Shown: positions 18,466 through 46,620 of the stretch, piece after piece | Position numbering within the stretch: position 1 is the stretch's first letter | Layout: the number at the start of each line of letters is the position of its first letter | DNA from: Candidatus Methanophagaceae archaeon | GTDB lineage: Archaea > Halobacteriota > Syntropharchaeia > Alkanophagales > Methanospirareceae | Length of the DNA: 64,000 nucleotides | NCBI GenBank assembly: GCA_003194435.1 | Contig: PQXC01000011.1 | Span: 1 to 64,000, forward strand | Direction of reading: 5' to 3' | Translations under genes and position numbers: made by a program | The notes under the pieces: model-generated | Database searches by the model: none | What the model was told of the DNA's origin: nothing | The model's input: only the letters and a program-made list of their open reading frames with translations

Positions 18466-19386
18466 TTAATCTTCTAACCCTGATAAAGATAAAGTGCCTG
18501 TATAAACCCAATAGTCGAAATATCCATCGCTCTCTTTGTTCTCTTTTATCTCTCCTTTAAACGTATCCTTCAGTATATCGTCCAGAATCTTCGCCTCCTC
18601 CTCGCTTGAAACAGTGAACAGGACTTTCCCTCCTTCCCTTAGCACCTTTGGCACTTCTCTTAAGACCTTCTCCCAATTGAAGACTTCGTAGGGTGTTAGT
18701 TTGCCTACCATAAACCCAAACACGACGTCAAATTCACGGCTGAAGAACGAGGAAAGAAGAGAGCAATCAAGTACGATGCTCTTCCTGGGCTCAAGCACAC
18801 CCTCCTCCAGCCCCCTGCATATCTCACACTTGTTTATATCCACAGTGATGGGAGAGATGCCCAGTTCGTGCAGCGCTATTGTCGCTTCACCCGCACCACA
18901 GCCAATCTCAATTGTATCACCGATAGGGGCAGGGGCTTCCCCTAAAAACATAATTAGTAGCTTCTTCAGTGCCTCTATCCTCGCACGCGAATAAAAACTC
19001 GCCTCCTTTATACCACAATCGCAGAACAATCGGTTCACCAGGCTGGTGGAATAGAACTCAATCACACCCTCACGAAACGCCCTCCACTTTACCTCCACCT
19101 CACGTTCTCTATCACCCCCTATATCGGCTGTAAGGGCGTTAAATTCCTCTATCTCTCTTCGACCCGCGATGAAATCGGTGAATACAATCCAGAAACCCAA
19201 CTCCCTGTCATGTATCGCAATACCTATAAGTGCGCTACTCTCATTGTATATCCGCAATAACTCGTCTACATCTGCTCTTTTCACCTTACGCATGTAATCG
19301 AGTGTCTTTGGTATCCACCGCTGTTCTGCGTAGCTACTCTCCACCAGCATAAAGTCCCCTATCCCCAGTAACTCGTTTAATTGCAT
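18466..19386 (-). CDS. Class I SAM-dependent methyltransferase
   Basis: 306 residues. The first ~125 form a distinct N-terminal domain with no recognised motif. The Rossmann methyltransferase domain follows, with motif I DTIEIGCGAGEA near residue 157, the acidic motif II ITVDINKC near 178, and KVLREGGKVLFTVSS as the post-core strand. The substrate cannot be read from the sequence. Because it lies between ycaO and mcrC on the same strand, a role in methylating MCR residues is possible. It ends ten bases from the convergent 18153 gene. Confidence 0.75.
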   Translation of the reverse strand: MQLNELLGIGDFMLVESSYAEQRWIPKTLDYMRKVKRADVDELLRIYNESSALIGIAIHDRELGFWIVFTDFIAGRREIEEFNALTADIGGDREREVEVKWRAFREGVIEFYSTSLVNRLFCDCGIKEASFYSRARIEALKKLLIMFLGEAPAPIGDTIEIGCGAGEATIALHELGISPITVDINKCEICRGLEEGVLEPRKSIVLDCSLLSSFFSREFDVVFGFMVGKLTPYEVFNWEKVLREVPKVLREGGKVLFTVSSEEEAKILDDILKDTFKGEIKENKESDGYFDYWVYTGTLSLSGLED

Positions 19387-19450: not shown

Positions 19451-20077
19451 CTATCCCGCACTGAACTTGCCTTCTTCTATCTCACGTAGACACATCTTCA
19501 CCTTACTCGTTATCTCATTCAACTTATCCTGTGGCACGCTCTCATGCCTTACGATTCCACTTACAATCTCTATAACTTTACCTGGCGTCTTACCCTGTTT
19601 GTGTCTCGTACTTACCCCTATTGCCTCGAAATCACCGTACTCTACGGGACACTGGCAGAGTACAATAGCCGGTATGTTTATCCTCGCCAATACGAACCGG
19701 ACCTTATAGATGAAATGTTGCTTGACATTGCCATGATTCAATAGAGCGAGCTTATGCCGCCCTATTATCTCTATCTCCTTCGGCTCCAGCCCAAATGCGA
19801 CACCATGCCCACCACCTGAGGGTGCATCTGCGGGTGTGCCATCACCAGCATTCAGTATTATCTCACCCACATTTATACCCTTATCCCTCAACTCTGTGGT
19901 TATTTCACATACCGGCTTTGGAACATGCCTGTAACCGGGTGACATTGCAATATTTATCACATCGTTCTCCAATGCTTTCGCGAATGTCCCTCGCTGGGCA
20001 AAACCTCCACCCAAGCCAAGTCCCTGACCTCTTCTGCATGCCACCAGCCGGGTCTCTCTACCCACTCCTGCTGCCAT
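19451..20077 (-). CDS. mcrC: McrC, MCR operon protein C
   Basis: 208 residues. Diagnostic segments are RETRLVACRRGQGLGLGGG and AQRGTFAKAL near the N terminus, VINIAMSPGYRHVPKPVCE, and TPADAPSGGGHGVAFG. McrC usually lies in the mcrBDCGA operon and is part of the ATP-dependent activation complex that reduces the Ni-F430 of MCR. Here it stands apart from mcrA but directly downstream of an atwA gene (16-base gap, with AGGTA before its ATG), which fits a dedicated activation operon. Confidence 0.88.
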   Translation of the reverse strand: MAAGVGRETRLVACRRGQGLGLGGGFAQRGTFAKALENDVINIAMSPGYRHVPKPVCEITTELRDKGINVGEIILNAGDGTPADAPSGGGHGVAFGLEPKEIEIIGRHKLALLNHGNVKQHFIYKVRFVLARINIPAIVLCQCPVEYGDFEAIGVSTRHKQGKTPGKVIEIVSGIVRHESVPQDKLNEITSKVKMCLREIEEGKFSAG

Positions 20078-20093
20078 TACCTCTCCCTTACCT

Positions 20094-21695
20094 CTACCTC
20101 AAATCTTCTATCTTCACTATCCGTCCATTCTGCATGTGCGCGATTCTATCGCAGACCATATTGACAAAATCCTGGTCATGAGAGACAATAAGGAACGTCA
20201 TACCCAGATTCTCACGTGCAGCTCTTATAGAATCGGCAACGAACTTCTTCGTTATGGGGTCCATTGTTCCCGTGGGTTCATCAAGTATCGCTATTGCCGG
20301 CTCCTTCATCAGTACCTGCGCGATCGCTATCCTCTGTCTCTCTCCTGCGCTCAACTGAGTATGGTCCTTAGGCAGGATCTCTTCCGCTTCATCTTCTGTG
20401 AATCCTACACTCTCAAGTATGAACTTCGCCTTCATTCGCGCCAGCTCCTCGGGTATCCTGACACCTATACAGCTTGTAAGGTTCTCCAGCACCGTCTTCT
20501 CCGGGTACATCGTGTATTCCTGATGCAACATGGCAACGCGCGTAGCTGCCTGCTCACCTACTCCAGGCGTGGTTGCACCCCATGCAATCCATACCCCGGT
20601 CTCCGCAACTCGCCCTACTTCTATCCATTTATCTCCTGCCCGTATCTTGACCGAACCCCCTGTTAACGGATCTATCTGCGCTATAATACGAGCCAAACTC
20701 GTCTTCCCTGCTCCACTTTTACCCAGAAGTCCAAATATCTCATTCTCGTATATCGTGAGTGAGACATCGTCTACCGCCTTCACCATCCCGCGCCAGACGG
20801 AATAGTAATACTTCTTGCAATGCTCAATCTTTATCTTCGGCTCCCCAACTTTCATATACTCCTCGCGCTCTATCTTGCCCACCTGCTTCTCAAAATCCTC
20901 TACTATCTGCTTCGAATCGCCGTATTTCACCACCTCTCCATGGTCAAGCCATAAAGTTTTCTCGGTTAGCTCTTCAATCACATAAGGCCAGTGAGAGGTG
21001 ACCACCATTGTCATGCCACCGTGTGTGCTCTCCTTAAGTGCTTTATGCACCAGTTTCGCAGTCTCGAAATCGAGTGTACCGGTAGGCTCATCAGCTAAGA
21101 GTAGCATGGGGTCCAATGCAAGTTGCCTTGCCAGCACCACTCGCTGCTTCTCACCCCCACTGAGGTTTGCAGCGGGGAAAGTCACACGATGCAGCATCTT
21201 CACCGCTTTCAGGAGCTCATATGCACGTCTGAACCGCTTCGCAGGGGGGTAATTCCTGCTCTCCAGCGCCTGCAAGACATTGTACATCACTGTATCATCG
21301 CTGTATAGTCCAAAAGTCCGTTGCAGCATGATAGCAACGCCTTTCTTCACCTTCTTACGCCCCTCTTTGTCCTTCCAGTAATTCACTTCCTTCAACTCCA
21401 GCTTCTCATTGCATTTACTGCACGGCTCCCCGACTCTGCTCGGTGACGCCACCCAACCGCAAGAAGGGCACATAGCTACCCTGAAGATTATCTCACCAGA
21501 AGTGGGTGCATATTCCTCACTGCCACGGAGCATATGAAGCAAGACTGACTTCCCTGCTCCGCTCCTTCCGAGCAACCCGAGCGATTCCCCCTCTCTTATC
21601 TCCACATTCACATTCTTCAAAGCTTCTTTGCCGTCGAATGTCTTACAGACATCACGAACTATCACAAACGGCTCCTCTTCTTCTGCTTCACTCAT
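20094..21695 (-). CDS. atwA: AtwA, MCR activation component A2 (copy 1)
   Basis: 533 residues with two ABC ATPase domains and no membrane segments. Domain 1 has GRSGAGKS (~42), a CPSC...CSKC zinc-ribbon-like insert (~75-95), the signature LSGGEKQR and LLADEPTGTLD. Domain 2 has GKSGAGKTS, LSAGERQR and AILDEPTGTMD. Component A2 is the ATP-carrier protein of MCR reductive activation. Its paralogue at 21767 is 71 bases upstream on the same strand, and mcrC follows downstream. Confidence 0.92.
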   Translation of the reverse strand: MSEAEEEEPFVIVRDVCKTFDGKEALKNVNVEIREGESLGLLGRSGAGKSVLLHMLRGSEEYAPTSGEIIFRVAMCPSCGWVASPSRVGEPCSKCNEKLELKEVNYWKDKEGRKKVKKGVAIMLQRTFGLYSDDTVMYNVLQALESRNYPPAKRFRRAYELLKAVKMLHRVTFPAANLSGGEKQRVVLARQLALDPMLLLADEPTGTLDFETAKLVHKALKESTHGGMTMVVTSHWPYVIEELTEKTLWLDHGEVVKYGDSKQIVEDFEKQVGKIEREEYMKVGEPKIKIEHCKKYYYSVWRGMVKAVDDVSLTIYENEIFGLLGKSGAGKTSLARIIAQIDPLTGGSVKIRAGDKWIEVGRVAETGVWIAWGATTPGVGEQAATRVAMLHQEYTMYPEKTVLENLTSCIGVRIPEELARMKAKFILESVGFTEDEAEEILPKDHTQLSAGERQRIAIAQVLMKEPAIAILDEPTGTMDPITKKFVADSIRAARENLGMTFLIVSHDQDFVNMVCDRIAHMQNGRIVKIEDLR

Positions 21696-21766
21696 TTTCC
21701 TACTCTTCTTTTCTATCTATAATTTAAATGAATAATTTAAATTTGAATATGAGTATAAAAACATAC

Positions 21767-23365
21767 CTAAGCTCTCAAATCCTCTATCTTCGTTATTTTA
21801 CCCGAATTCATGTATGCTATCCTGTCACATACCTTCTTCGCAAAGTCTAAATCGTGTGTTACTATCACGAATGTGATACCAAGGTTCTCCCTTGCCTTCA
21901 ATATCGTCTCAGCCACGTATTTCTTGGTCACAGGGTCCATCGTCCCGGTGGGCTCATCAAGCACTGCTATCTCCGGCTCTTTCATCAATACCTGCGCGAT
22001 AAGTATCCTCTGACGTTCTCCCACGCTCAACTCGAGATGCGTCTTTGGTAATACCTCATCTATCTCCTCATCGCTAAATCCCACTCCTTTCAGCATGAAC
22101 CTCACTTTCATCTGTGCAAGCTCCTCTGGCATATCAAGACCTATACCATGCGTAAGGTTCTCCCAGACCGTGAGTCCGGGAATGAGCGAGTATTCCTGGT
22201 GCAGTACACCCACAAAATGCGCTCTCCAGTCTGTTGTACCACCCATAATCTCCCCACCCGGTCCTATAAATGTGTCAACGTCGGCTTTTGATGCCTCTAT
22301 CCATCTATCACCACTCCGTACCCACGCTCCACCGCCTGTACCCGGGTCTAAATGGCTCACAATCCGCATTAAGCTCGTCTTACCCGCTCCACTATGCCCC
22401 ACTATCCCGAATATCTCATTCTCGTATACGACAAAAGAGACGTCATCCACTGCCTTTACCACACCTCGTGATGCGGAATAGTAATACTTCTTCAGGTTCT
22501 CCACTCTTATCTTCGGCTCTCCGAACTTCTTGAACTCGCCTCGCTCTATCTCCCCTACTTCTTTCTCAAAATCGCTCACCACCTGCTCTGTATCACCGTA
22601 TGAAACGAGCTCACCATTATCAAGCCATGCTGTCTTCTCCGTCAGCTCTCTAATCACGTAAGGCCAGTGCGAAGTGACGAGTAATGTGGTTCCACCCCTT
22701 GTACTATCTATCAATGCGCGGTGTACAACGCGAGCAGTTTCATGGTCAAGAGTGCCAGTAGGTTCGTCAGCCAGTAGCAGAATGGGTTCCAAGGCTAACT
22801 GTCTTGCAAGCACCATCCGCTGCTTCTCTCCACCGCTGAGGTCCCTTGTATCAGGGAAGTTAACACGATGCAGCATCTTCACAGCATCCAGTAGCTCATA
22901 CACCCTCTTCATCCTCTTGCTCTTCGGGTAACCCGCCCGGTCAAGTGCCTCCAGTACATTCCACACAACTGACTCATCACTATACAGAGCGAAACTTCGC
23001 TGTAACATGATGGCAATTGCGCCCTTCAATAATTTCCGCATTCGCTTATCCTTCCAGAAGTTCACTTCCTTCAACTCATACTCCGCCCCGCACTTGTTAC
23101 ACGGAGTGCCAACCTTGCTCGGTCCACTTATCCATGAACACGAAGGACATATCGCCACCCGATAAATAATCTCGCCACTATCTGGTGCATATTCCTCCGT
23201 TCCCCTGAGCATACGCAGTAGCACCGATTTCCCTGAGCCACTCTTACCAAGAAGCCCTAAAGGCTCCAGCTCCTTTATATCCAGGCTTACATTCTTCAAC
23301 GCTGGCTTGCCATTGAACTCCTTGCTCACATTCCTAACTTTAATAAATATCTCGTCCTCCCCCAT
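21767..23365 (-). CDS. atwA: AtwA, MCR activation component A2 (copy 2)
   Basis: 532 residues, two ABC domains with the same layout as the 20094 gene: GKSGSGKS, the cysteine insert CPSC...CNKC, LSGGEKQR, LLADEPTGTLD, then GHSGAGKTS, LSVGERQR and AVLDEPTGTMD. The two copies are colinear along their whole length but differ clearly, so this is an old tandem duplication, not a recent one. Both keep all ATP-binding residues that I can see, so both are probably active. Confidence 0.92.
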   Translation of the reverse strand: MGEDEIFIKVRNVSKEFNGKPALKNVSLDIKELEPLGLLGKSGSGKSVLLRMLRGTEEYAPDSGEIIYRVAICPSCSWISGPSKVGTPCNKCGAEYELKEVNFWKDKRMRKLLKGAIAIMLQRSFALYSDESVVWNVLEALDRAGYPKSKRMKRVYELLDAVKMLHRVNFPDTRDLSGGEKQRMVLARQLALEPILLLADEPTGTLDHETARVVHRALIDSTRGGTTLLVTSHWPYVIRELTEKTAWLDNGELVSYGDTEQVVSDFEKEVGEIERGEFKKFGEPKIRVENLKKYYYSASRGVVKAVDDVSFVVYENEIFGIVGHSGAGKTSLMRIVSHLDPGTGGGAWVRSGDRWIEASKADVDTFIGPGGEIMGGTTDWRAHFVGVLHQEYSLIPGLTVWENLTHGIGLDMPEELAQMKVRFMLKGVGFSDEEIDEVLPKTHLELSVGERQRILIAQVLMKEPEIAVLDEPTGTMDPVTKKYVAETILKARENLGITFVIVTHDLDFAKKVCDRIAYMNSGKITKIEDLRA

Positions 23366-23456: not shown

Positions 23457-23825
23457 TCAGGTTCGCTTCTTGAGCACCATTATATCAGGGCGGGGAGCAG
23501 CCTTTGAACCCGCAAATTCGCGCTTGCAACGCGTACATAGTTGTCTTGCGGTGAGCGTTACGACCTCATCCGAGCCAGGTAATTTCCTCGCATAGATGAA
23601 CTCAGGCTTCACACCCACTGACCTGCTTATATCCTCAAGTATCGCGCTTATCTTATCCCTGAATACCACCACGTCATCGCTCTTCAGTCCTCTCAGATCG
23701 GCAGCGAAGCCAGTACAACCACACACCATCCCGAATACCTTCGCCTCCGGGACGAAGATATTACCTAAGAGTGCTCTCAATTCATCCTCCAGTCTCTTCC
23801 TACCCGCGATTATCTCCTCCTTCAT
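23457..23825 (-). CDS. Small cysteine-containing protein, possibly DUF5402-like
   Basis: 122 residues. An N-terminal helix is followed by NIFVPEAKVFGMVCGCTGFAADL (split here between FVPEAKVF and VCGCTGF) near residues 22-42, and a C-terminal pair LCTRCKREF near 98. It resembles a small methanogen-restricted family that I recall as DUF5402, but the name is uncertain. It lies between the U32 genes and atwA on the same strand, 30 bases from one and about 90 from the other, so it is a candidate MCR-maturation factor with a metal or Fe-S site. Confidence 0.55.
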   Translation of the reverse strand: MKEEIIAGRKRLEDELRALLGNIFVPEAKVFGMVCGCTGFAADLRGLKSDDVVVFRDKISAILEDISRSVGVKPEFIYARKLPGSDEVVTLTARQLCTRCKREFAGSKAAPRPDIMVLKKRT

Positions 23826-23854: not shown

Positions 23855-24874
23855 TCATTTCTTCACGCTCAATACCCTGCTCGTCACTTCATCACAGTAT
23901 CGGCAGGTATCGCACATCTTATTACAGCTCTTCCACTGGTTTATACACCCTTCAAGCTTCTTATTATCAATATAAAACATATAACGGAGCTCAGAGGGGC
24001 AATCCAGGAGTTCAAGCAGGTTACCCTCGTATGACCTCCGCGAATAAGCATCCATACAGGCTGTTATCCACCCCACTGCATTTGCACGCCCTGCTATCTT
24101 AAAATCTTCTATCCCTATTCTCTCGTATTCCACGATGTCCTCCGGTCTTATCCATGGTGATCGGATGATCTGTGAAGGGTCACGAACCCGTATGGATATA
24201 CACTTATCGAAATAATAATCACCGAAGGTGTTCAGTGGCTGTGTACCTGTACCTGCACCTGCACCTGAAGCAGCAGTTATATGTGAGAAGAGGTTGAAGT
24301 GTGCATACCGAAACGGGCATTTGTAAAGGCAACCCTCGTTCACTATCACCCTGATATCGCAGTTCACCGCTCTCATTATAGCCTCCAGCGTATCGAAATC
24401 GCGGTTTATGTTCGTATCCACCGTGATACTATCAGCGCCAAGCGCCTCATAGAACTCCGCTCGCTGTGGTGAATCAACATGAGAGACGCAGGATATGACG
24501 GTTTCCATCGGGAAATCCCTCAGCAGTTCCACTAAATATGGCTCCGCCACCGTGACACCATCCACACCCGCCTTATTCAGTTCCTCAAAATACCATTCAA
24601 AGAGCTTGTAGCCCTCAAAAGTGAGGTGATAGCCACCCAGGCAGGATGGATTCATCACTATATTCATCTTGATGCCATGTTGATGTGCATACTCGGTTTG
24701 TTCCCTGATCTCTTCTATAAGTGCGGCATGCAGTGTCGCTCTCCCGCTACCCATCACCTGCGGTGAGCCTGCCATATAAACTTCATCCACATCTGCTAAA
24801 TGCTTATCCTCTTTATACTCTATTATCTCCTTCAATGCTTCGAAATGCCCGGGATGCGGAACTATCAATCTCAT
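23855..24874 (-). CDS. U32 family protein, member B of a tandem pair
   Basis: 339 residues, TIM-barrel-like, COG0826/U32 type. Visible motifs: MRLIVPHPGHFEAL at the start, NEGCLYKCPFRYAHFN near residue 197, FDKCISIRVRDPSQIIRSP, and a C-terminal CNKMCDTCRYC. The Cys residues could hold a [4Fe-4S] cluster, as in the UbiU/UbiV and RNA-hydroxylating U32 enzymes, which hydroxylate substrates without oxygen. Classical U32 collagenase activity is not indicated. The start lies one base after the stop of its paralogue. Confidence 0.8.
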   Translation of the reverse strand: MRLIVPHPGHFEALKEIIEYKEDKHLADVDEVYMAGSPQVMGSGRATLHAALIEEIREQTEYAHQHGIKMNIVMNPSCLGGYHLTFEGYKLFEWYFEELNKAGVDGVTVAEPYLVELLRDFPMETVISCVSHVDSPQRAEFYEALGADSITVDTNINRDFDTLEAIMRAVNCDIRVIVNEGCLYKCPFRYAHFNLFSHITAASGAGAGTGTQPLNTFGDYYFDKCISIRVRDPSQIIRSPWIRPEDIVEYERIGIEDFKIAGRANAVGWITACMDAYSRRSYEGNLLELLDCPSELRYMFYIDNKKLEGCINQWKSCNKMCDTCRYCDEVTSRVLSVKK

Positions 24875-24875
24875 T

Positions 24876-25877
24876 TCATTTGATGGTGCTCAATACCTCC
24901 GCTGTGAGTTTATCGCAATAGCCACATTCGTGACAATGCTTATTGCACTCCTTCCATTGCTCTATACTACCTTCGAGCTTCTTATTGTCAATGTAGAAGA
25001 CATAACGGAGCATCTGAGGGCAATCCAGGAGTTCAAGCAGGTTACCATCATACGACCTTCGGGAATATACCCGCATGCAGTTTATTATCCAGTTCACTGC
25101 CTTCGTCCTGCCTGAGAGTTTAAAGCTATTTATCCCGATAGCCTCGTATTCCTTCAGGTCTTCGGGTCTTATCCATGCTGACCTGATGATCTGCGTCGGG
25201 TCTCTCAAGCGGATATTAATGCACTTGTCAAAATAGAAATCAGGAGCGAATAGCGGCGTTCTCGGCTGATTCAAGCTACTGAGATGTGATGCGAGATTGT
25301 AATGAGAATACCGAAACGGGCATTTGTAAAGGCAACCTTCGTTCACTATCACCCTGATGTCGCAGTTTACCGCTTTCACCATCGCCTCCAGAGTAGAGAA
25401 ATGGCGATTTATATTCGTATCCACAGTTATCACATCAGCACCGAGTTCCTCAAAGAACCGTGCACGCTGTGGCGCATCCACATAAGATAAACAGGATACA
25501 ATCGTCTTCATCGGGAATTCACGCAGTAACTCCACAAGATAAGGCTCCGCAACTATAACACCATCCACACCCGCCTTGTTCAATTCCTCAAAATACCATT
25601 CAAACATCTTATAACCCTCAAAAGTCAGATGATGCCCACCAGTGCATGGTGAATTCAGAGCGATGTTCATTCTGATGCCATGCTGATGTGCATAGTCAGT
25701 TTGTTCCCTGATCTCGTCAATAAGTGGCGCGTGGAGCACCCCCCTTCCACTGCCCATCACCTCCGGCGAGCCGCCCATATAGACTTCTTCTACTTCATTC
25801 AAACCTTCTGACTCTTTAGCCTCTATTATCTCCTTCAACGCTTCGAAATGTCCGGGATGCGGAACCATCAATCGCAT
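24876..25877 (-). CDS. U32 family protein, member A of a tandem pair
   Basis: 333 residues, closely related to the 23855 protein along the whole length: MRLMVPHPGHFEAL, NEGCLYKCPFRYSHYN, FDKCINIRLRDPTQII, and C-terminal CNKHCHECGYC. The one-base gap and similar length suggest the two form a heterodimer, as UbiU-UbiV do. It is the first gene of the run leading to atwA and mcrC. O2-independent hydroxylation is an inference from the family; the substrate is unknown. Confidence 0.8.
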   Translation of the reverse strand: MRLMVPHPGHFEALKEIIEAKESEGLNEVEEVYMGGSPEVMGSGRGVLHAPLIDEIREQTDYAHQHGIRMNIALNSPCTGGHHLTFEGYKMFEWYFEELNKAGVDGVIVAEPYLVELLREFPMKTIVSCLSYVDAPQRARFFEELGADVITVDTNINRHFSTLEAMVKAVNCDIRVIVNEGCLYKCPFRYSHYNLASHLSSLNQPRTPLFAPDFYFDKCINIRLRDPTQIIRSAWIRPEDLKEYEAIGINSFKLSGRTKAVNWIINCMRVYSRRSYDGNLLELLDCPQMLRYVFYIDNKKLEGSIEQWKECNKHCHECGYCDKLTAEVLSTIK

Positions 25878-25925: not shown

Positions 25926-26690
25926 TTAGATAAGATAAGCATAAGCAATCAAGATGGCGATAATACCACCAAATAACGTTGCCAGGATGTTCACGTGATG
26001 CTTATTCAATTTAAATGGATTCCGATCCTCGAGTGTTGCACCAAGCACGCTATCAGCCAGAGAGCCCATGAACCCTGAGATGAGGCAGATGGTGAATGAA
26101 GTCCGTTTATCCATATCCAGATTCAAGGGGAAGGTGAGCGATACGAGCGAGATTAAAGCAGAGCCGAGCAGTGCAGCACCGATGCCGGGTAGGCTGACAC
26201 CACCATTAGTCCCCACTGGCACTCGCTTAAGCGTAGTAATCAATCTCGGTCTACCGTCTGCCTGTCCTATCTCGGTTGAGAAGGTATCAGCGCAGGCGGT
26301 GGCGACGGAGCCCGAGAACCCAATTAAGAAGATGGCGTTACGCGAGATGGCGAAGGAAATAGCGAAGATTAGTGGCGATAGCCCGTTACCAAGTACGTTA
26401 TTTATGTCCCGCATACCCCTATTTGATTCAGCAACGCCAAGTGCAGCTTTCTTCTCATATTTGTATTTCGTGACGAGGTTACCAAACAGGAAGAAAGCAA
26501 GTAGCGCGAGCAATCCACAATAACTATATCGCAATCTGAGCGTTATCAGAATACCAGCGCCAAGTGCGAGAGTGCCGAGGAAAGCAGCGGTGTTTATCTT
26601 TCGTCTCACATACGTATATATCACCGCTGAGAGTGCAACCAGAGCTGTAACTACGTCTATCCACAGATATTCATTGAGCAACATGACCAT
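25926..26690 (-). CDS. DUF92/TIGR00297 family membrane protein
   Basis: 254 residues with about six or seven hydrophobic segments. The family pattern is visible: ADTFSTEIGQ near residue 137, ITTLKRVPVGTNGGVSLPG near 152, and a C-terminal ...GSLADSVLGATLEDR. Relatives include phytol/phytyl-phosphate kinases and CDP-alcohol-type enzymes; in archaea a role in isoprenoid lipid phosphate metabolism is possible but unproven. It lies 48 bases upstream... on the same strand, its 3' end faces the U32 operon. Confidence 0.75.
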   Translation of the reverse strand: MVMLLNEYLWIDVVTALVALSAVIYTYVRRKINTAAFLGTLALGAGILITLRLRYSYCGLLALLAFFLFGNLVTKYKYEKKAALGVAESNRGMRDINNVLGNGLSPLIFAISFAISRNAIFLIGFSGSVATACADTFSTEIGQADGRPRLITTLKRVPVGTNGGVSLPGIGAALLGSALISLVSLTFPLNLDMDKRTSFTICLISGFMGSLADSVLGATLEDRNPFKLNKHHVNILATLFGGIIAILIAYAYLI

Positions 26691-26745: not shown

Positions 26746-27882
26746 TCACTCATTCTCATCCTTACTCTCGTCATGGAGCATGCAGACGGGATCCTCAGCG
26801 AGATAGTCACCGGAAACGGCATAAGCTCGCGACCTGCAACCACCACATGTCTCCCTGTATCGGCAGGTTGCACATCTACCCTTCAGCCTTCTCTCACGCA
26901 GTGCATTGAAGACATCCGCATTGCGAATTATATCCAGGAATTTCGCATCTCTTATATTGCCCGCCGTCACAGGCAGATATGCGCATGGCGCCACATCACC
27001 GTCAGGGAAGATATGGAAGCGAGTGATACCGGCAGTACAGCCTGTGAATTGAGGTTTGTTTCCATCTACAAGCCCCATTGACTGGAGATAAGCCCAATAT
27101 TGGGGATTGCATATCGGTTTAAGCCATACGCGGACATCCTTCTGCTGCTCCAGTACGAACTTGAAGAATTTCATATTCTCAGCAGGGGATAAACAGGCAT
27201 GGGAAATCTCCTTACCCCGACCTACAGCGATTAGATATATAAGATAGATTCTCCAGAGTCCAATAGAATCGGCAAACTTGATTATCCCCGGTAGCTCCTC
27301 GTAGTTATATCTTGTAACCATTGAGAATAGCTGAACGGCAAGTCCAGCATTCGTGCATGCCTTGAGCCCCCGAATCGTGGCTTTAAATGCACCATCAACA
27401 CCCCTGAAGAGGTCGTGTGCATGCCCGAGACCATCAATACTTATCGCTGCACGTTCCAAACCCGCTCTCACCAACTTCTTTGCCACTTCATCTGTTATCA
27501 GCGTTCCATTTGTCGCCATCACCACCTGCATATCAAACGAGGCGGCATATTCGATGAGTTCATATATATCAGGACGCAGTAGCGGCTCTCCACCTGTGAA
27601 TGCGAATTTGACATGTCCAAGTTTCGCCGCTTCTTCGATCAGTTCAAAGCCTTCCTCCGTACTGAGCTCTCCAGGCGCTTCTTCACTGATTGAACAGTGT
27701 TTGCACCGCAGGTTGCATTGCTTTGTAACTGCCCATACGACCTCACCGGGCGAATAGCTGAAACAGCCGGTTCCTACGGCATCATTTGCAAAAATCTCAT
27801 CCTTATGCGCTCTTATCCATGATCTTAACTCTAACTCCTTAGCATTCATCATTCCCTCTCTTCTTGAGGGTGGGCATCTCAT
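26746..27882 (-). CDS. Radical SAM/SPASM enzyme
   Basis: 378 residues. The radical SAM cluster motif CNLRCKHC lies at about residue 54, GGEPLLRPD near 97, and the C-terminal auxiliary-cluster cysteines GCTAG...GDVAPCAYL and CATCRYRETCGGCRSRA near 335-355. Such proteins modify peptides or tetrapyrroles; AhbD (heme synthesis) has a similar layout. The substrate cannot be assigned. It precedes DUF92, the U32 pair and the MCR activation genes on the same strand, so a role in MCR or F430 modification should be considered. Confidence 0.82.
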   Translation of the reverse strand: MRCPPSRREGMMNAKELELRSWIRAHKDEIFANDAVGTGCFSYSPGEVVWAVTKQCNLRCKHCSISEEAPGELSTEEGFELIEEAAKLGHVKFAFTGGEPLLRPDIYELIEYAASFDMQVVMATNGTLITDEVAKKLVRAGLERAAISIDGLGHAHDLFRGVDGAFKATIRGLKACTNAGLAVQLFSMVTRYNYEELPGIIKFADSIGLWRIYLIYLIAVGRGKEISHACLSPAENMKFFKFVLEQQKDVRVWLKPICNPQYWAYLQSMGLVDGNKPQFTGCTAGITRFHIFPDGDVAPCAYLPVTAGNIRDAKFLDIIRNADVFNALRERRLKGRCATCRYRETCGGCRSRAYAVSGDYLAEDPVCMLHDESKDENE

Positions 27883-40058: not shown

Positions 40059-40085
40059 AAACCTTTTCTTAGAAAGAAAAGGTTT
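40059..40085 (-). terminator. Perfect 12-bp hairpin at the end of the giant secreted protein gene
   Basis: AAACCTTTTCTT (40059-40070) and AAGAAAAGGTTT (40074-40085) pair perfectly around a 3-base loop, just beyond and overlapping the TAA of the 2178-residue gene. It is a plausible terminator or transcript-end stabiliser. Near-copies occur at 11997-12038 and 62682-62752. Confidence 0.55.
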
Positions 40086-43000
40086 ACCAAAAGAACCTTA
40101 TTGCAGGTATCCAGTCATAATAAACCCTCCCATTTGCATCCCCAAATGAAGAGCAGTTTATCCTGCCATTTGGTGTGAGTAAGGATGTATTATGATGAAT
40201 CTGTGGATAAGAGCCCGTTATTATTGTGAATTTATACTCCTCATCTGCGTACAACTTGAAAGGTTCAGTGAAAGAAAGATTATGCCAATCTCCTCCATAG
40301 CCTTCCCATGGTAAAGTCTCGATACCCCATGAATCGTTATAAATCCTTGCGTATTCCGTATGACCGCCGGTGCCTGAGCAGGGATAGGTGTAAAGTTTGG
40401 ACACATTAATCGTTTGATTTGGTGTGATTATGCCTGTATGGTTTCCCATTATGCTTGGGTATGGATTTTCGCTTGGACCTGTGTCAAAAACATTTTCTGT
40501 TGGTGCAAAGTAATTCTCAAAAGGCTTCATCAGCGGATAATTGTCGTTATCTGAATCTACGGGGTAATATGTATCACCAATTCCATCGTTGTTTTCATCT
40601 GTTCCGTTATAATCGCTCCAGTAGTTGCCGAGATAGTTCTCGTAAGTTTTTCCTTTATAGGTGTAGGTTATTTTTTCGGTGGAGTTCCAGATGTTGGTTG
40701 ACCATACAGAATAAACATTATCTGTGTTGTTTATGAAGTTGTTAATATATATGACGTTGTTATTGCTTGAAGAGTGCAGGATGATGCCGTATTCGTTGTA
40801 CAATGCGTTGTTATTTATGATGCTGTTGTTATTGGAATCCCCATAGAGGATAATTCCCTCCGTGTTATTCGAGGCGTTATTGTTTGTGATGATATTGTTG
40901 GAAGAATCAAATAGAATGCGGATTCCAAACTCGTTGTTCAAGACATCATTGTTTATAATGCTATTATTTGAAGATTTATCATAGAGGCAAATTCCTTCGT
41001 ACTCATTATTCGAGGCATCATTGTTTATAATGCTGTTGTTAGAACAATAAGAGAGGAGACGGATTCCATCAAAACTATTGAAGCTAACGCTATTGTTTAT
41101 GATACTGTTATTGGAAGAATAAGATAGATGAATTCCGTCAAAGTTTTTCGAGACATTATTTTCAATGAGCGTGTTATTGTTTGATAAAGAGGACAAAGAT
41201 ATTCCGTCATTCTTCGAGTTTGTTATGTGATTATGATTGAGTATGGTATTGTTTGATGCAACTAAAACAATACCTGCTGAATTGTTAGCCACTTCATTAT
41301 CAAATAAAATATTGGTATTGCTCCAAAATAATCCGAAACCGTCTAATTTGTTTGAATTTGCAGTATTTCGTGTTGCCGTGTTATGGTTACTACCAGCAGT
41401 TATTACAATGCCTCGGTATCGATTTAAATTCGCAGTGTTGAATGTTATCTGAGTATAAGTAGAATTAAATAAATAAAACCCATCTATGTTATTATTTGAA
41501 GCATTGTTATTTGATATTATATTATTGTGTGCATCTACGAAAGCAATTCCTCGACCATTCATTTTGACTGTATTATTTGCTATTGTATTATAACTACTGT
41601 TAGCATGTAAATAAGCGCCATCAGCAGTGTTATTTGAAAAAACATTACCTTTCAGGTTATTGCAATGAACATCTGCAAGAGCTATCCCACGATTATTGTT
41701 CAACGCAGTATTGTTAATTATTTGATTATAACCCGAATTAGCGTGTAAATAGATACCATCCGCAGAGCTATTCAAAAGAATGTTCCCCTTCAGCACATTA
41801 TTATGGGCATCTGCAAGAGCTATTCCACGATTATTTGCTTTAGCTGTATTATTTGTTATTCTATTGTAACTACTATTAGCATGAAGATAAATTCCATTAC
41901 TATTATTCAATAATGTATTATTTTCTAAAATAGTATTGCTTGAAGATGATAGAGAAATCCCATTATCGTTGCTTGAGGCAATATTGCCAATTATTCTGTT
42001 ATTATCGCTATTTGATAAGTAGAGCCCATTAACACTGTTAACGATCTTAAAACCATTAATAGTGCAATTATCAGCAGTAACAGTAATGGCATTTCCATTC
42101 CCACCTGCATCAACTACTGGATAATCAATTCCTGTTAAATTAATTGACTTATCCACATCCACATTCTCATTATAAGTCCCAGCGTCCACCGTTATCGTAT
42201 GCCCATCCTTTGTATCGTAATCATCAATCGCAGCCTGAATAGATGAGAAGTTCTCGCCTGTGTTTAAGTTATGAACTGGAAGCCCTGTTACTTCATAGAG
42301 CGCCACTTCATCCCACCATGCAGTCCCGGTTCCCGCATTAAAATCGAATAAGAACCAAAGCCAAGTGCAATCTTTGGGCATCGGCGAGAGAGTGAAAGGT
42401 TCGCTTTCGTAGTACCACCAATTTTTTGTTCCATTGACATAACCTATTTCTTTCACATAACCATCTGCGGGTGTCCAACCAGTATCATCAACATAATCAA
42501 GACCAATTACCACACACCCTTCTACATTTTCTGTTTTAATCCACCCACTTATCTTATATGTTTTCCCTAGTTCTAATTTTCCCGTTACATTCTGATAAAA
42601 TCTCCCAAGGTTGCTTTTTTCCATTTCAACCCCTTTTACACAATAACTTCCACTAACAGCGCAAGTGTCCACCGAATAATCCGCAGTTCCTCCCGTTTGA
42701 TACCAGTATCTCAATCTTTCTTCAAAGTTCGAATTTAACAGCAGGTTTTCTATCAACTCTATTTCAACCTCCCCATGAGCAGATTCTGCTGGCGGTGCAT
42801 CACCTGGATTCTTGGGACAATCTATCCATGCTTTTAATTTTACCGTACCTGGCGTGCCCATGCCTATACTACTGTTTGCAATCACTTCTGCTTCAAATTC
42901 GTTATCAGGACGTATAGGAATATCATTAAGTTCTGGATGTAGCACATCGTTAATGAAAATATCAACTGTGGAGCCCGTGGTGACCACACCCTTTATATTA

Positions 43001-46000
43001 AACGCTTCGCCGATTACTACTGTCCGTGGTATATCAAAGTAAACTTTCTTTTCTCCTTTTACTTTTATCAACCAGACAGAACCAGCGCCGTTAGACCTTG
43101 TCAAGCCTGTAATGATATATCCACCATCTAAAGTATGCTGAATTGAGTAGCCTTCATCCCGGTCCGACCTATCAAAGGTTCTATCCCATACTTTATTTCC
43201 GTCTGCATCTGTCTTTATCAGCCATACATCATAAAGCCAAACACCATAAGAATACCATGCCCATGTAGTACCTGCAACGATAAATCCTCCATCTAACGTC
43301 TGCAGGACTGAGGATCCTGCTGCACCTGCACGCGCACTATACGGTCCAAAGGTTTTATCCCATACTCTATTTCCATGTGAATCAGTTTTTATTAGCAAGA
43401 CATAAGGACCCCAACCTCCACTACCTGTGATAATAAATCCTTTATCTGATGTCTGCTTGACCGAGTAGCCATAATCCTCCACACTTACTCCAAATGTTTT
43501 ATTCCATTTTTCGTTTCCATTTTTATCTGTCTTTATCAGCCAGACATCCCTAAAACCCGCTCCGTAAGACATTGTATAACCCGTAATAATATATCCTCCA
43601 TCTGATGTTTGCTGGATTGATCGACCACTATCCTCTTCAGGCCCACCAAAAGTCCTGCTCCACACTTTATTTCCATTAGAATCAGTCTTTATCACCCAGA
43701 CATCACTAGAACCAGCGCCGTAAGACCCTGTAGAACCCACAATGATATATCCTCCATCCGAAGTCTGCTGGACTGCGTAACCATAATCGTAATCTGGCCC
43801 CCCATAAGTCTTACTCCATTGCTTATTTCCAATAGAATCAGACTTTATCAACCAGACATCATAATAACCAGCGCCGTAAGACCATGTAGAACCCGCAATG
43901 ATATATCCTCCAGTTGATGTCTGCTGAACTGATTCGCCCCAATCACGATATGCCCCACCAAATGTCTTGTTCCATTCTTCGTTCCCGTTAGAATCGGTCT
44001 TTAATAGCCAGATGTCATTCTTACCAGCGCCGTAAGAATATGTCTCCCCTGTAATGATAAATCCCCCATCCGATGTCTGTTGGACCGACTTGCCGCTATC
44101 ATAACTTGACCCACCAAAAGTCTTGTTCCACTCTTCGGCGGGTAGCGTTGGCGTTGGCGTTGGTTCCAACGAATAAACCTTATTTCTCGCATCAGGATAA
44201 TTCGCTACGGTATAATACTCAGTCGCCTCCGCAACCGTTTCCGGCTCGATGCTGAACTCATCCACAGTAGCCAGATAACCCGGCTGCGTATTAATATCAA
44301 ACCGATTCGCAGCCCATTTCGCAGTATGGTCTTTGCTATAAAGCGTCAATCCAAAATTCTGGTCGTTCACAAACGAAGCCCAGTATTCAGTAGGATAAAA
44401 ATACGTATTCGCAGACCCCGGCGACTGTTGGGGTATGCTGAGTTCAACAACGGTATCGTTTGTCCACGGCTTGCTGCCATTATACGTAATGCACCTGTAC
44501 AAACTCTTATTAACGTATGCGCAAGGAAACTCCTGGTCGTAGAACGTATGAACCTCAGTTCCCCAATGTGTCATTCTATAATCCACCTTTACAGCTTCGC
44601 CTTCAAGCGAGACCCATTGCTCCACATACACGTCTGCAAGCTCACCGGTATTCCAATCGCGTGGCTGTGTTTTCGTATAAATCAGATTCGGCTGAGCCGT
44701 ATAATCCTGAACAGGACTGCCCTTATCTTTTATATCTCCACCCTGAACCGGATTCCACGCACTGCTATTGTCATAGAACGCAACCTGAGCAAGCCTGCCT
44801 GCATCGTGGTCATCTATCAGATTGAAACCCTGATGGCTGATTTCACTTATTGCACCGCCCCAATCCAGATTGACGCCAACTCTGATTATGCCGTTATCTA
44901 AATATTTCAGAGTTGGCGGGATATTATAAGCGAAGAAGAATTTTTGCGTGCCAGGTCGGTAAACGCCAATGTTGGAGTCGCCATCTCCGTTCCAGCTACC
45001 GGTGATTGGGATATCGCCGTTATTTCCATAAGGATAAGGAGTAATATCCGCCTGGCTGCCGGTAAGATTCAAATCGAAATAAAAAGTCGGGTTGTTCCAG
45101 TAATCCGGGTCGTATGCACGATAAACACCGACATCGTCATCGCCGTCCCAATCCCAGTCTCCTGTAATTGGAGTATCGCCAGACAGACCAAAAGGAACAT
45201 CTTTGAACGAAGTTGCAGTAGAACTGCCCAAATTGAGCAGATATAAGTAAAATGTGCTGTTAGCAGGATAGTAGCCGCCGATGTCGTCGTCACCGTCCCA
45301 ATCGCCTGCAACCGGTATATCGTCTGGATAGTAACCAAAAGGAATTGTTTTGTCCGCTGCACCAACTTCATAAGGCAGGTCTGCCCAGTTTCTCGTTACT
45401 AAGTAAAACGTTGATTGCTCAGCGCCATCTTCTTTCGGGCGGAACACGCCTATCTCGTCATAGCCGTCACCATCCCAATCGCCTATAACTGGTATATCGG
45501 TTGTCACACCGAATCTGACTGTTTTCCCGTCAAATGTGAATTCCGCGGTGCTGGTGTTGTAAATGCCAGGTGTGTCTGTGCCGTTTGCAGTTAAATCTGC
45601 GGTGAGTGGGATTAGAACATTTTCTGCTGTTTTAATATGAATAAACCGATGATGAGTAGTACCCAATTGCCAGTCGGCATGCCATACGCAGGTTGTATGA
45701 GCTGCTACCTTGCCACTGCCAAGATAGAGCGCCACATGGTCCCACCATCCATCTCCGTTCCAATCGTAGTTGATAACATCACCTTTCTCTAATTGATCAA
45801 TTGAAGTTTTTTGTTCAGCAAAATCATTGTTAAGTAACCAATCGCCGAGGGCATCTGCACCTGCAATACCATATGGTCCGGTTGGAAAATCTCTACGCAC
45901 CTCCAATCCGCCACCTTGCTCATTTGGTTCGCTACCGATGCAACACGATACAAAATGAGCACAATCATAGCCTGTCCAACCCACAATATTCGTTCCCGGT

Positions 46001-46620
46001 GAAAGTGTAATATATTTTGAGGACGTATTCCAAAAATAACCATCACTACAAACTTCATCCCAGTATTTTTGGGCATAATTATACGCTGATTGGCGGCTAT
46101 ATGATGAACTCACAGGTCCAAGTGGCAAAGACTGGTCAGCGAAGGATACATGTACAAGCCTGCAATCACTCCATCCAGAAGAGCTAACCCCAAATAAGTA
46201 CTCCGCTACCGGAGATGAAACATCGATTATCGATCTTCCACCATCGCCACATTTCGCTCTGGCATTATCAATTACCCATTGCACTGGTCCCCAATCCTCG
46301 ATTGACGCGACAATCGCCTTATTATTTGCCTCTATTAAAACCTTCTTCTTATACCACCATGCCTTACCACCAGGTTGCGAATAGTCCCACCTCATAGCAA
46401 CATAATACTCTGATACCCTTCCGCCATACGCACTAAATGCACCTTCGCCCGGGGGGCAATAGAATGTAGTCAGGTAATTCCATTCAGCAGGCAGTGTATG
46501 TCCTTCAAGCTCAGTCGCCACTTGCGCTGAGGATACAAGCTCGCCACTTGAAAGAAGAGCCACTGTAAGAGAAAATGCAAAAATCACTACAAACCCCCAA
46601 ACCTTCACGCTTTTCTTCAT
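40084..46620 (-). CDS. 2178-residue multidomain secreted protein
   Basis: Signal peptide at residues 1-32. A double-psi beta-barrel-like region (~55-165) is followed by an amidase_6/CHAP-like hydrolase, with Cys in GYDCAHFVS (~218) and His in WWDHVALYL (~294). Four or more FG-GAP/VCBS-like repeats ([10 protein letters not shown], ~367-553) come next, then a mutarotase-like region and a TPTPTLP linker. Seven ~50-residue repeats ([14 protein letters not shown]..., ~828-1190), a carbohydrate-binding-like domain (~1290-1430), a NosD-like parallel beta-helix (~1460-1960) and a C-terminal beta domain follow. Probably a cell-surface or matrix adhesin/hydrolase. No sortase tail is seen. Confidence 0.8.

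Follow-up and report, generated by a model that had tools for sequence, protein, structure and literature searches.

The question raised by this locus is what two adjacent proteins of the U32 family may do in an operon devoted to the activation of MCR, the enzyme responsible for almost all methane of biological origin and for the first step of anaerobic methane oxidation. In U32 oxidases a [4Fe-4S] cluster is bound by cysteines, and the substrates, which are hydroxylated without O2, are nucleobases or precursors of quinones; prephenate is the oxygen source for UbiUV and is implicated as such for other U32 oxidases (PMC11574389). By analogy, hydroxylation of an indole ring can be regarded as the same kind of step. 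Hydroxytryptophan has been found in each of the three ANME clades for which MCR structures are available, organisms in which a hydroxylase that needs oxygen is unable to function. As of 2020, no enzyme was known for this modification of MCR (PMC7581889), and no later assignment was found in the literature searched. Neither was a link between U32 proteins and MCR found by term search in ProPhylo or in the 2022 methanogenesis-marker paper. The earlier note on this DNA had proposed that the U32 pair could be an oxygen-free hydroxylase acting on MCR. We think that MCR is supported as the target, but that the conserved unit consists of U32 and a small protein, DUF5402, the pair being specific to ANME-1. 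It is likely, judging from sequence comparisons, that U32–DUF5402 hydroxylates the active-site tryptophan of McrA without oxygen.

Gene Organization of the Locus

The window, i.e., the whole stretch of 64,000 nucleotides that was analysed, contains on its minus strand a gene run that spans approximately 27.9 to 18.5 kb and in which neighboring genes are separated by 1 to about 90 bases. It starts with a radical SAM (rSAM)/SPASM protein of the NirJ2/AhbD (haem-modifying) type (26746–27882) and a DUF92 membrane protein (25926–26690), followed by U32-A (24876–25877, 333 aa, PF01136 with 42.4 bits) and its paralogue U32-B (23855–24874, 339 aa, 33.8 bits). Directly downstream of U32-B lies DUF5402 (23457–23825, 122 aa, PF17393 with 127.7 bits). 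Then come two paralogues of component A2 (AtwA), the ATPase of MCR activation, at 21767–23365 (TIGR03269, 631 bits) and 20094–21695 (686 bits), both exceeding the equivalog cut-off of 517. McrC, the MCR operon/activation protein (19451–20077, TIGR03264 with 241 bits, cut-off 213.5), matches chain I of PDB 8s7v with E = 1.4e-62, and the final gene encodes a SAM-dependent methyltransferase (18466–19386, assigned by PF08241 and synteny).

U32-A and U32-B share one operon with both AtwA paralogues and McrC, and since the pair is kept in about 47 of the 51 genomes of the window's family, the arrangement is not due to chance. The earlier note's description of two adjacent, cysteine-rich U32 paralogues upstream of AtwA and McrC holds: the open reading frames are intact and the profile matches lie above the cut-offs. 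Its gene list was right for the U32 pair, AtwA and McrC, but it left unnamed the DUF5402 gene between the pair and AtwA, and AtwA is in fact two paralogues.

Several other features of the region deserve mention. Tandem full-length component A2 paralogues (in the window at 20094–23365, minus strand) are also found in ANME-1 loci L033–L038, L043, L047 and L052. The SAM-dependent methyltransferase has been retained close to McrC by a number of ANME-1 genera (L033, L034, L036, L037, L040, L043), and its substrate is conceivably an MCR residue. The window also includes an open reading frame of 2178 aa at 40084–46620 (minus strand). The DUF92 and rSAM/SPASM genes could provide a link to tetrapyrrole (F430 or haem) chemistry; outside the window genus (L034, L035) they were not seen immediately before the U32 pair, and with the linkage so confined we rejected them as part of the core of the system.

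The U32 Proteins and Their Cysteines

The two U32 proteins are 73% identical, are encoded one base apart and are the only PF01136 matches in the 1.8-Mb genome assembly. Both are above the PF01136 cut-off of 22.4, with a match that spans about 80 of 233 positions, and no NCBIfam model matched either of them. The cysteines of U32-A are C78, C182, C186 and C219, plus C311-X3-C315-X2-C318-X2-C321; those of U32-B are C78, C182, C186 and C225, plus C317-X3-C321-X2-C324-X2-C327. Seven of these eight cysteines are invariant or nearly so among 76 relatives, the four in the barrel being conserved in 75–76 of them at each position. The remaining one, C311/317, is Cys in 70 of the 76 and His in six ANME-2a/b-like rows. 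C78, C182, C186 and C219/225 are candidate ligands of a [4Fe-4S] cluster. The nearest solved relative is PDB 5d88 (E = 8.6e-21 for U32-A and 2.3e-21 for U32-B). In an AlphaFold model built from two sequences, strands alternate with helices across the N-terminal half, but the mean pLDDT of 51 is too low for a fold search.

In the phylogenetic tree, U32-A forms one fully supported clade and U32-B another, both within the ANME-1 proteins, which are separate from the U32 proteins of Methanosarcinales and Methanococcales. The pair is an ANME-1 duplication, most other lineages having one U32 per DUF5402, and its two members lie apart in some ANME-1 genera (G027, G029, G032, G033).

The U32–DUF5402 Cassette and Its Genomic Neighbors

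The conserved unit is the U32–DUF5402 cassette, not the U32 pair as such. In almost all lineages examined, DUF5402 comes directly after U32: ANME-1, Methanoliparia-like f12, Syntrophoarchaeum-like G057, Methanosarcinaceae, ANME-2a/b-like, ANME-2c, ANME-2d, ANME-3-like, Methanocaldococcus, Methanothermococcus, Methanotorris and Methanopyri. Its Cys 35, 37, 97 and 100, arranged as CxC and CxxC, are invariant in all 30 sequences. As DUF5402 is too weakly conserved for an alignment scan of contigs, the McrC of M. maripaludis served as query instead. A tandem double-domain form of DUF5402 occurs in some Syntropharchaeia genomes (L053, L054, L055).

The neighbors of the cassette are mcr, mtr, A2, mcrC and cfbC genes, and no UbiT-like gene was seen among them. 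In Methanoliparia-like f12 (L060, L061), a complete mcrB-D-C-G-A operon is followed by U32–DUF5402, and in Syntrophoarchaeum-like G057 (L056) the cassette comes after acrA. ANME-1 genomes show the order U32A-U32B-DUF5402-A2-A2-McrC (the window, L033–L038, L047), U32A upstream of mcrB-G-A (L051), or a cassette that adjoins mtr genes and A2/McrC together (L047, L045). In ANME-2d the cassette stands a few kb upstream of mcrB-D-G-A (L286, L306). The U32 in this position, which is also seen in L305, is a second, divergent one of the ANME-2d genomes and branches outside the main Methanosarcinales clade. The cassette heads the mtrEDCBAFGH operon in Methanosarcinaceae and ANME-3-like genomes (L064–L069, L072, L290, L291), and the F430 biosynthesis gene cfbC comes next after it in two Methanothermococcus genomes (L235, L254, L295, L300).

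A fused, frameshifted remnant of U32–DUF5402 precedes an intact mtr operon in Methanohalophilus-like G198 (L297, 4192–4860), which indicates that the cassette can be lost; this remnant is a recent loss and a natural test case.

Distribution Among Genomes

A search of 325 Halobacteriota genomes gave McrA matches in 189 and DUF5402 matches above the cut-off in 79, these 79 all belonging to MCR/ACR families, with a patchy occurrence. According to the earlier note, a wide spread in genomes without MCR would speak against the idea. It was not observed: in the approximately 136 genomes with no McrA match, DUF5402 exceeded the cut-off only in seven incomplete, fragmentary ANME-1 assemblies. The Methanococci and Methanopyri genomes examined for the cassette are also MCR-bearing, and DUF5402 is present in 12 of the 36 Methanococci-type genomes.

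In the Methanosarcinales-type order, a U32 orthologue is found in most ANME-2a/b-like, ANME-2c, ANME-2d and ANME-3-like genomes, and in most of those termed Methanolobus-, Methanococcoides- and Methanohalophilus-like, which are genus labels inferred from gene content among other bases. None was found in the Methanosarcina genomes (g68, with McrA 89–97% identical to that of M. barkeri or M. acetivorans) or in f35. Genome G056, of the same genus as G057, has no U32 match despite four acrA genes. With this patchy distribution, the cassette was rejected as a universal marker of methanogenesis.

Correspondence with MCR Modifications

The variable modifications of MCR were taken from published structures (PMC9081873, Table 1; PMC12413448 for ANME-2c and ANME-2d), and genomes were assigned to the crystallised enzymes by McrA identity. 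The cassette is present in G522, with McrA 100% identical to 5n28 (M. formicicus, 6-hydroxytryptophan), in f36, with McrA closest to 9qm5 (ANME-2c, 6-hydroxytryptophan), and in f37, with McrA 92% identical to 9qqt (ANME-2d, 6-hydroxytryptophan). It is present as well in ANME-1, for which the hydroxylated tryptophan mentioned in the earlier note is 7-hydroxytryptophan in the published data (PMC9081873). It is absent from G521, with McrA 100% identical to 5n1q (M. thermolithotrophicus), from G330, with McrA identical to 7b1s (Ca. Ethanoperedens), and from M. acetivorans and, by genus, M. barkeri, all four having no hydroxytryptophan. Cassette and hydroxytryptophan agree in eight of eight organisms (Fisher p 0.029, shared descent being ignored), where the status of ANME-1, ANME-2c, ANME-2d and M. 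barkeri is that of the family or genus, not of the crystallised strain. S-methylcysteine, 2-methylglutamine, 5-methylarginine, didehydroaspartate, S-oxymethionine and 3-methylisoleucine agree with the cassette in only three to five of the eight, so that the phylogenetic profiling suggested in the earlier note singles out hydroxytryptophan and no other modification. The p value alone is weak; the weight comes from its agreement with the independent evidence of genomic context. Didehydroaspartate, which might arise by hydroxylation of aspartate and dehydration, was considered as a product and rejected, as it occurs in cassette-less Methanosarcina and is absent in cassette-bearing M. formicicus and ANME-1.

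Two further species bear on the match. The MCR modifications of M. okinawensis are reported to be the same as those of M. maripaludis (PMC9584954), and MAGs labelled as M. okinawensis lack DUF5402, which is consistent with the match. The MCR of M. kandleri is listed without hydroxytryptophan (PMC9081873). A Methanopyri MAG (L236, L241) is therefore discordant, as it carries the cassette. The M. kandleri structure is reportedly of modest resolution; the oxygen could have been overlooked, or this may be a real exception.

The McrA of the window genome (L076, contig C13) has an ANME-1-like cysteine-rich region and, by alignment, a tryptophan (W444) 18 residues before the thioglycine site. Judging from alignment, the target tryptophan would be residue 429 in M. 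formicicus numbering. Every canonical McrA examined has this tryptophan, whether or not the genome carries the cassette, and the idea that it was gained jointly with the enzyme was consequently rejected. The alkyl-CoM reductases of G057 have His, Tyr or Asn at this position, with the cassette beside acrA, so that the substrate there must differ.

Alternative Explanations

The last observation also bears on two explanations in which McrA tryptophan is not the substrate. The cassette might hydroxylate or otherwise oxidise a cofactor of methanogenesis, be it F430 or a precursor that MCR or Mtr uses, the match with hydroxytryptophan being a coincidence of descent. The position of cfbC in Methanothermococcus, the cassettes that head mtr operons, the modified F430 of ANME-1, 17(2)-methylthio-F430 (PMC9081873), and the Syntrophoarchaeum-like ACRs that lack the tryptophan while the cassette is present all point that way. 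However, the cfbC adjacency is limited to one genus, F430 is canonical in cassette-bearing ANME-2c and ANME-2d (PMC12413448) and no known F430 variant tracks the distribution of the cassette; we consider this explanation unlikely. Action on another residue of MCR or ACR, or on an Mtr subunit, e.g., a ring hydroxylation not yet seen, would fit the proximity to mcr/acr/mtr, which is the strongest link of all, and again the ACRs adjoining the cassette without the tryptophan. ANME-1 has in addition S-oxymethionine, found nowhere else. Nevertheless, this last modification is absent from cassette-bearing M. formicicus, ANME-2c and ANME-2d, and presence and absence are matched by hydroxytryptophan only, which makes another residue quite improbable as the substrate.

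A general U32 hydroxylase of RNA or quinones (similar to RlhA, TrhP or UbiUV) that is near MCR genes by chance seems very improbable. It would share the Pfam family with the window proteins, the quinone chemistry of ANME-1 is unsettled, and the DUF92 protein upstream in the window genus is presumably related to prenyl-phosphate kinases. But DUF92 adjoins the cassette in that genus only (L034, L035), with no UbiT-like gene in sight; the cassette occurs in MCR/ACR lineages only, some members of which have lost it, and a housekeeping RNA enzyme is not expected to track mcr operons. The historical name of the family and the co-transcription with A2 and McrC in ANME-1 could instead suggest a true peptidase, or a chaperone-like factor, that assists in activating or assembling MCR and takes no part in redox chemistry, a reading that we find hardly credible given the invariant cysteines and the fact that characterised U32 proteins are, in the literature, Fe-S oxidases. 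Moreover, the activation complex purified from a methanogen contains McrC, Mmp7, Mmp17, Mmp3, A2 and DUF2098, U32 and DUF5402 not being among its named subunits (PMC12176620). A component of such a complex is expected to be universal in MCR-bearing archaea, and DUF5402 is missing from 117 of the 189 McrA-bearing Halobacteriota genomes; hence the cassette is not needed for activation.

Proposed Function and Significance

Hydroxylation of McrA is the explanation that we prefer. The proposal in the earlier note of an O2-independent hydroxylase for MCR is supported by the restriction to MCR lineages, the adjacency to mcr, acr, A2-mcrC and mtr genes and the hydroxytryptophan match; the strongest candidate for hydroxylating the tryptophan of MCR is U32 together with DUF5402, and not the pair by itself. 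From the genes, their conservation, their genomic association and the match we infer the chemistry, the substrate and the order of events, including catalysis, Fe-S binding and use of prephenate by the cassette. U32-A, U32-B and DUF5402 would together be a U32-type oxidase that hydroxylates a protein, its target being the conserved tryptophan of McrA and its product 7-hydroxytryptophan in ANME-1 and, where there is a single U32, 6-hydroxytryptophan. Each U32 would be a TIM-barrel; from the cysteine positions of UbiV/UbiU type and the CX3CX2CX2C tail, two clusters per protein are predicted, one [4Fe-4S] on C78/C182/C186/C219-225 and a probable second one on the ferredoxin-like C-terminal motif. 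The oxygen would come from a shikimate-derived donor such as prephenate, as for UbiU-UbiV, while DUF5402, with its four invariant cysteines, might deliver electrons or present McrA. MCR would be hydroxylated while nascent or not yet activated; this would account for the co-transcription with A2 and McrC. The U32 proteins of ANME-1, where the product is 7-hydroxytryptophan, and those of Methanosarcinales and Methanococcales, where it is 6-hydroxytryptophan, occupy separate places in the tree, which suggests that the U32 protein may set the regiochemistry. On balance, we think that a new U32 subfamily and its dedicated partner DUF5402 are probably an anaerobic protein hydroxylase and the long-missing 6-/7-hydroxytryptophan enzyme of MCR, with the ring position determined by the U32 clade.

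If this is true, proteins would join quinones and RNA as targets of U32 chemistry, and the cassette, absent from M. acetivorans, would be a missing part for the production of native-like ANME MCR in this and similar hosts. With a candidate gene pair at hand, the function of hydroxytryptophan becomes testable.

Comparison with Known Systems

The closest known system is UbiU-UbiV of E. coli, O2-independent hydroxylases of ubiquinone biosynthesis, which share with the window proteins the U32 domain, two side-by-side paralogues and four conserved cysteines per barrel. The C-X3-C spacing of UbiV C193/C197 is kept in both window proteins and the C-X38-C spacing of UbiU C193/C232 in U32-B. On the other hand, the window proteins have the extra C-terminal CX3CX2CX2C and one ligand cysteine far upstream (C78), and the cassette differs in its DUF5402 partner, in the single U32 of most lineages and in an MCR/Mtr context instead of UbiT and quinone biosynthesis. 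RlhA and TrhP, also of the U32 family, perform O2-independent ring hydroxylation of rRNA and tRNA, with prephenate implicated (PMC11574389); they differ from the window proteins in their RNA substrates, in having no tie to MCR lineages and in their motif. The CX6CX15CX3C of the U32 oxidases (PMC6747719, PMC11574389) coincides only in C-X3-C with the arrangement in the window, C78-Xn-C182-X3-C186-X32/38-C219/225.

Among PDB entries, the closest in sequence (E about 1e-21) is MkU32 of Methanopyrus kandleri (5d88), the first U32 structure, annotated as a protease. In Methanopyri-type MAGs (L236–L238), the gene that directly follows U32–DUF5402 codes for a close homologue of MkU32, and the solved "U32 peptidase" probably belongs to the U32–DUF5402 system. 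The MkU32-type protein has lost the CxxxC (it reads AVGA..RDP), unlike the window proteins, and looks like a non-cluster paralogue of the cassette system. Finally, Mmp10 (5-methylarginine), MgmA (2-methylglutamine), McmA (S-methylcysteine) and YcaO-TfuA (thioglycine) use radical SAM, SAM or ATP-thioamidation chemistry, and none of them hydroxylates; nevertheless, like the cassette, they are lineage-variable accessory enzymes of MCR lineages, each matching one modification of McrA.
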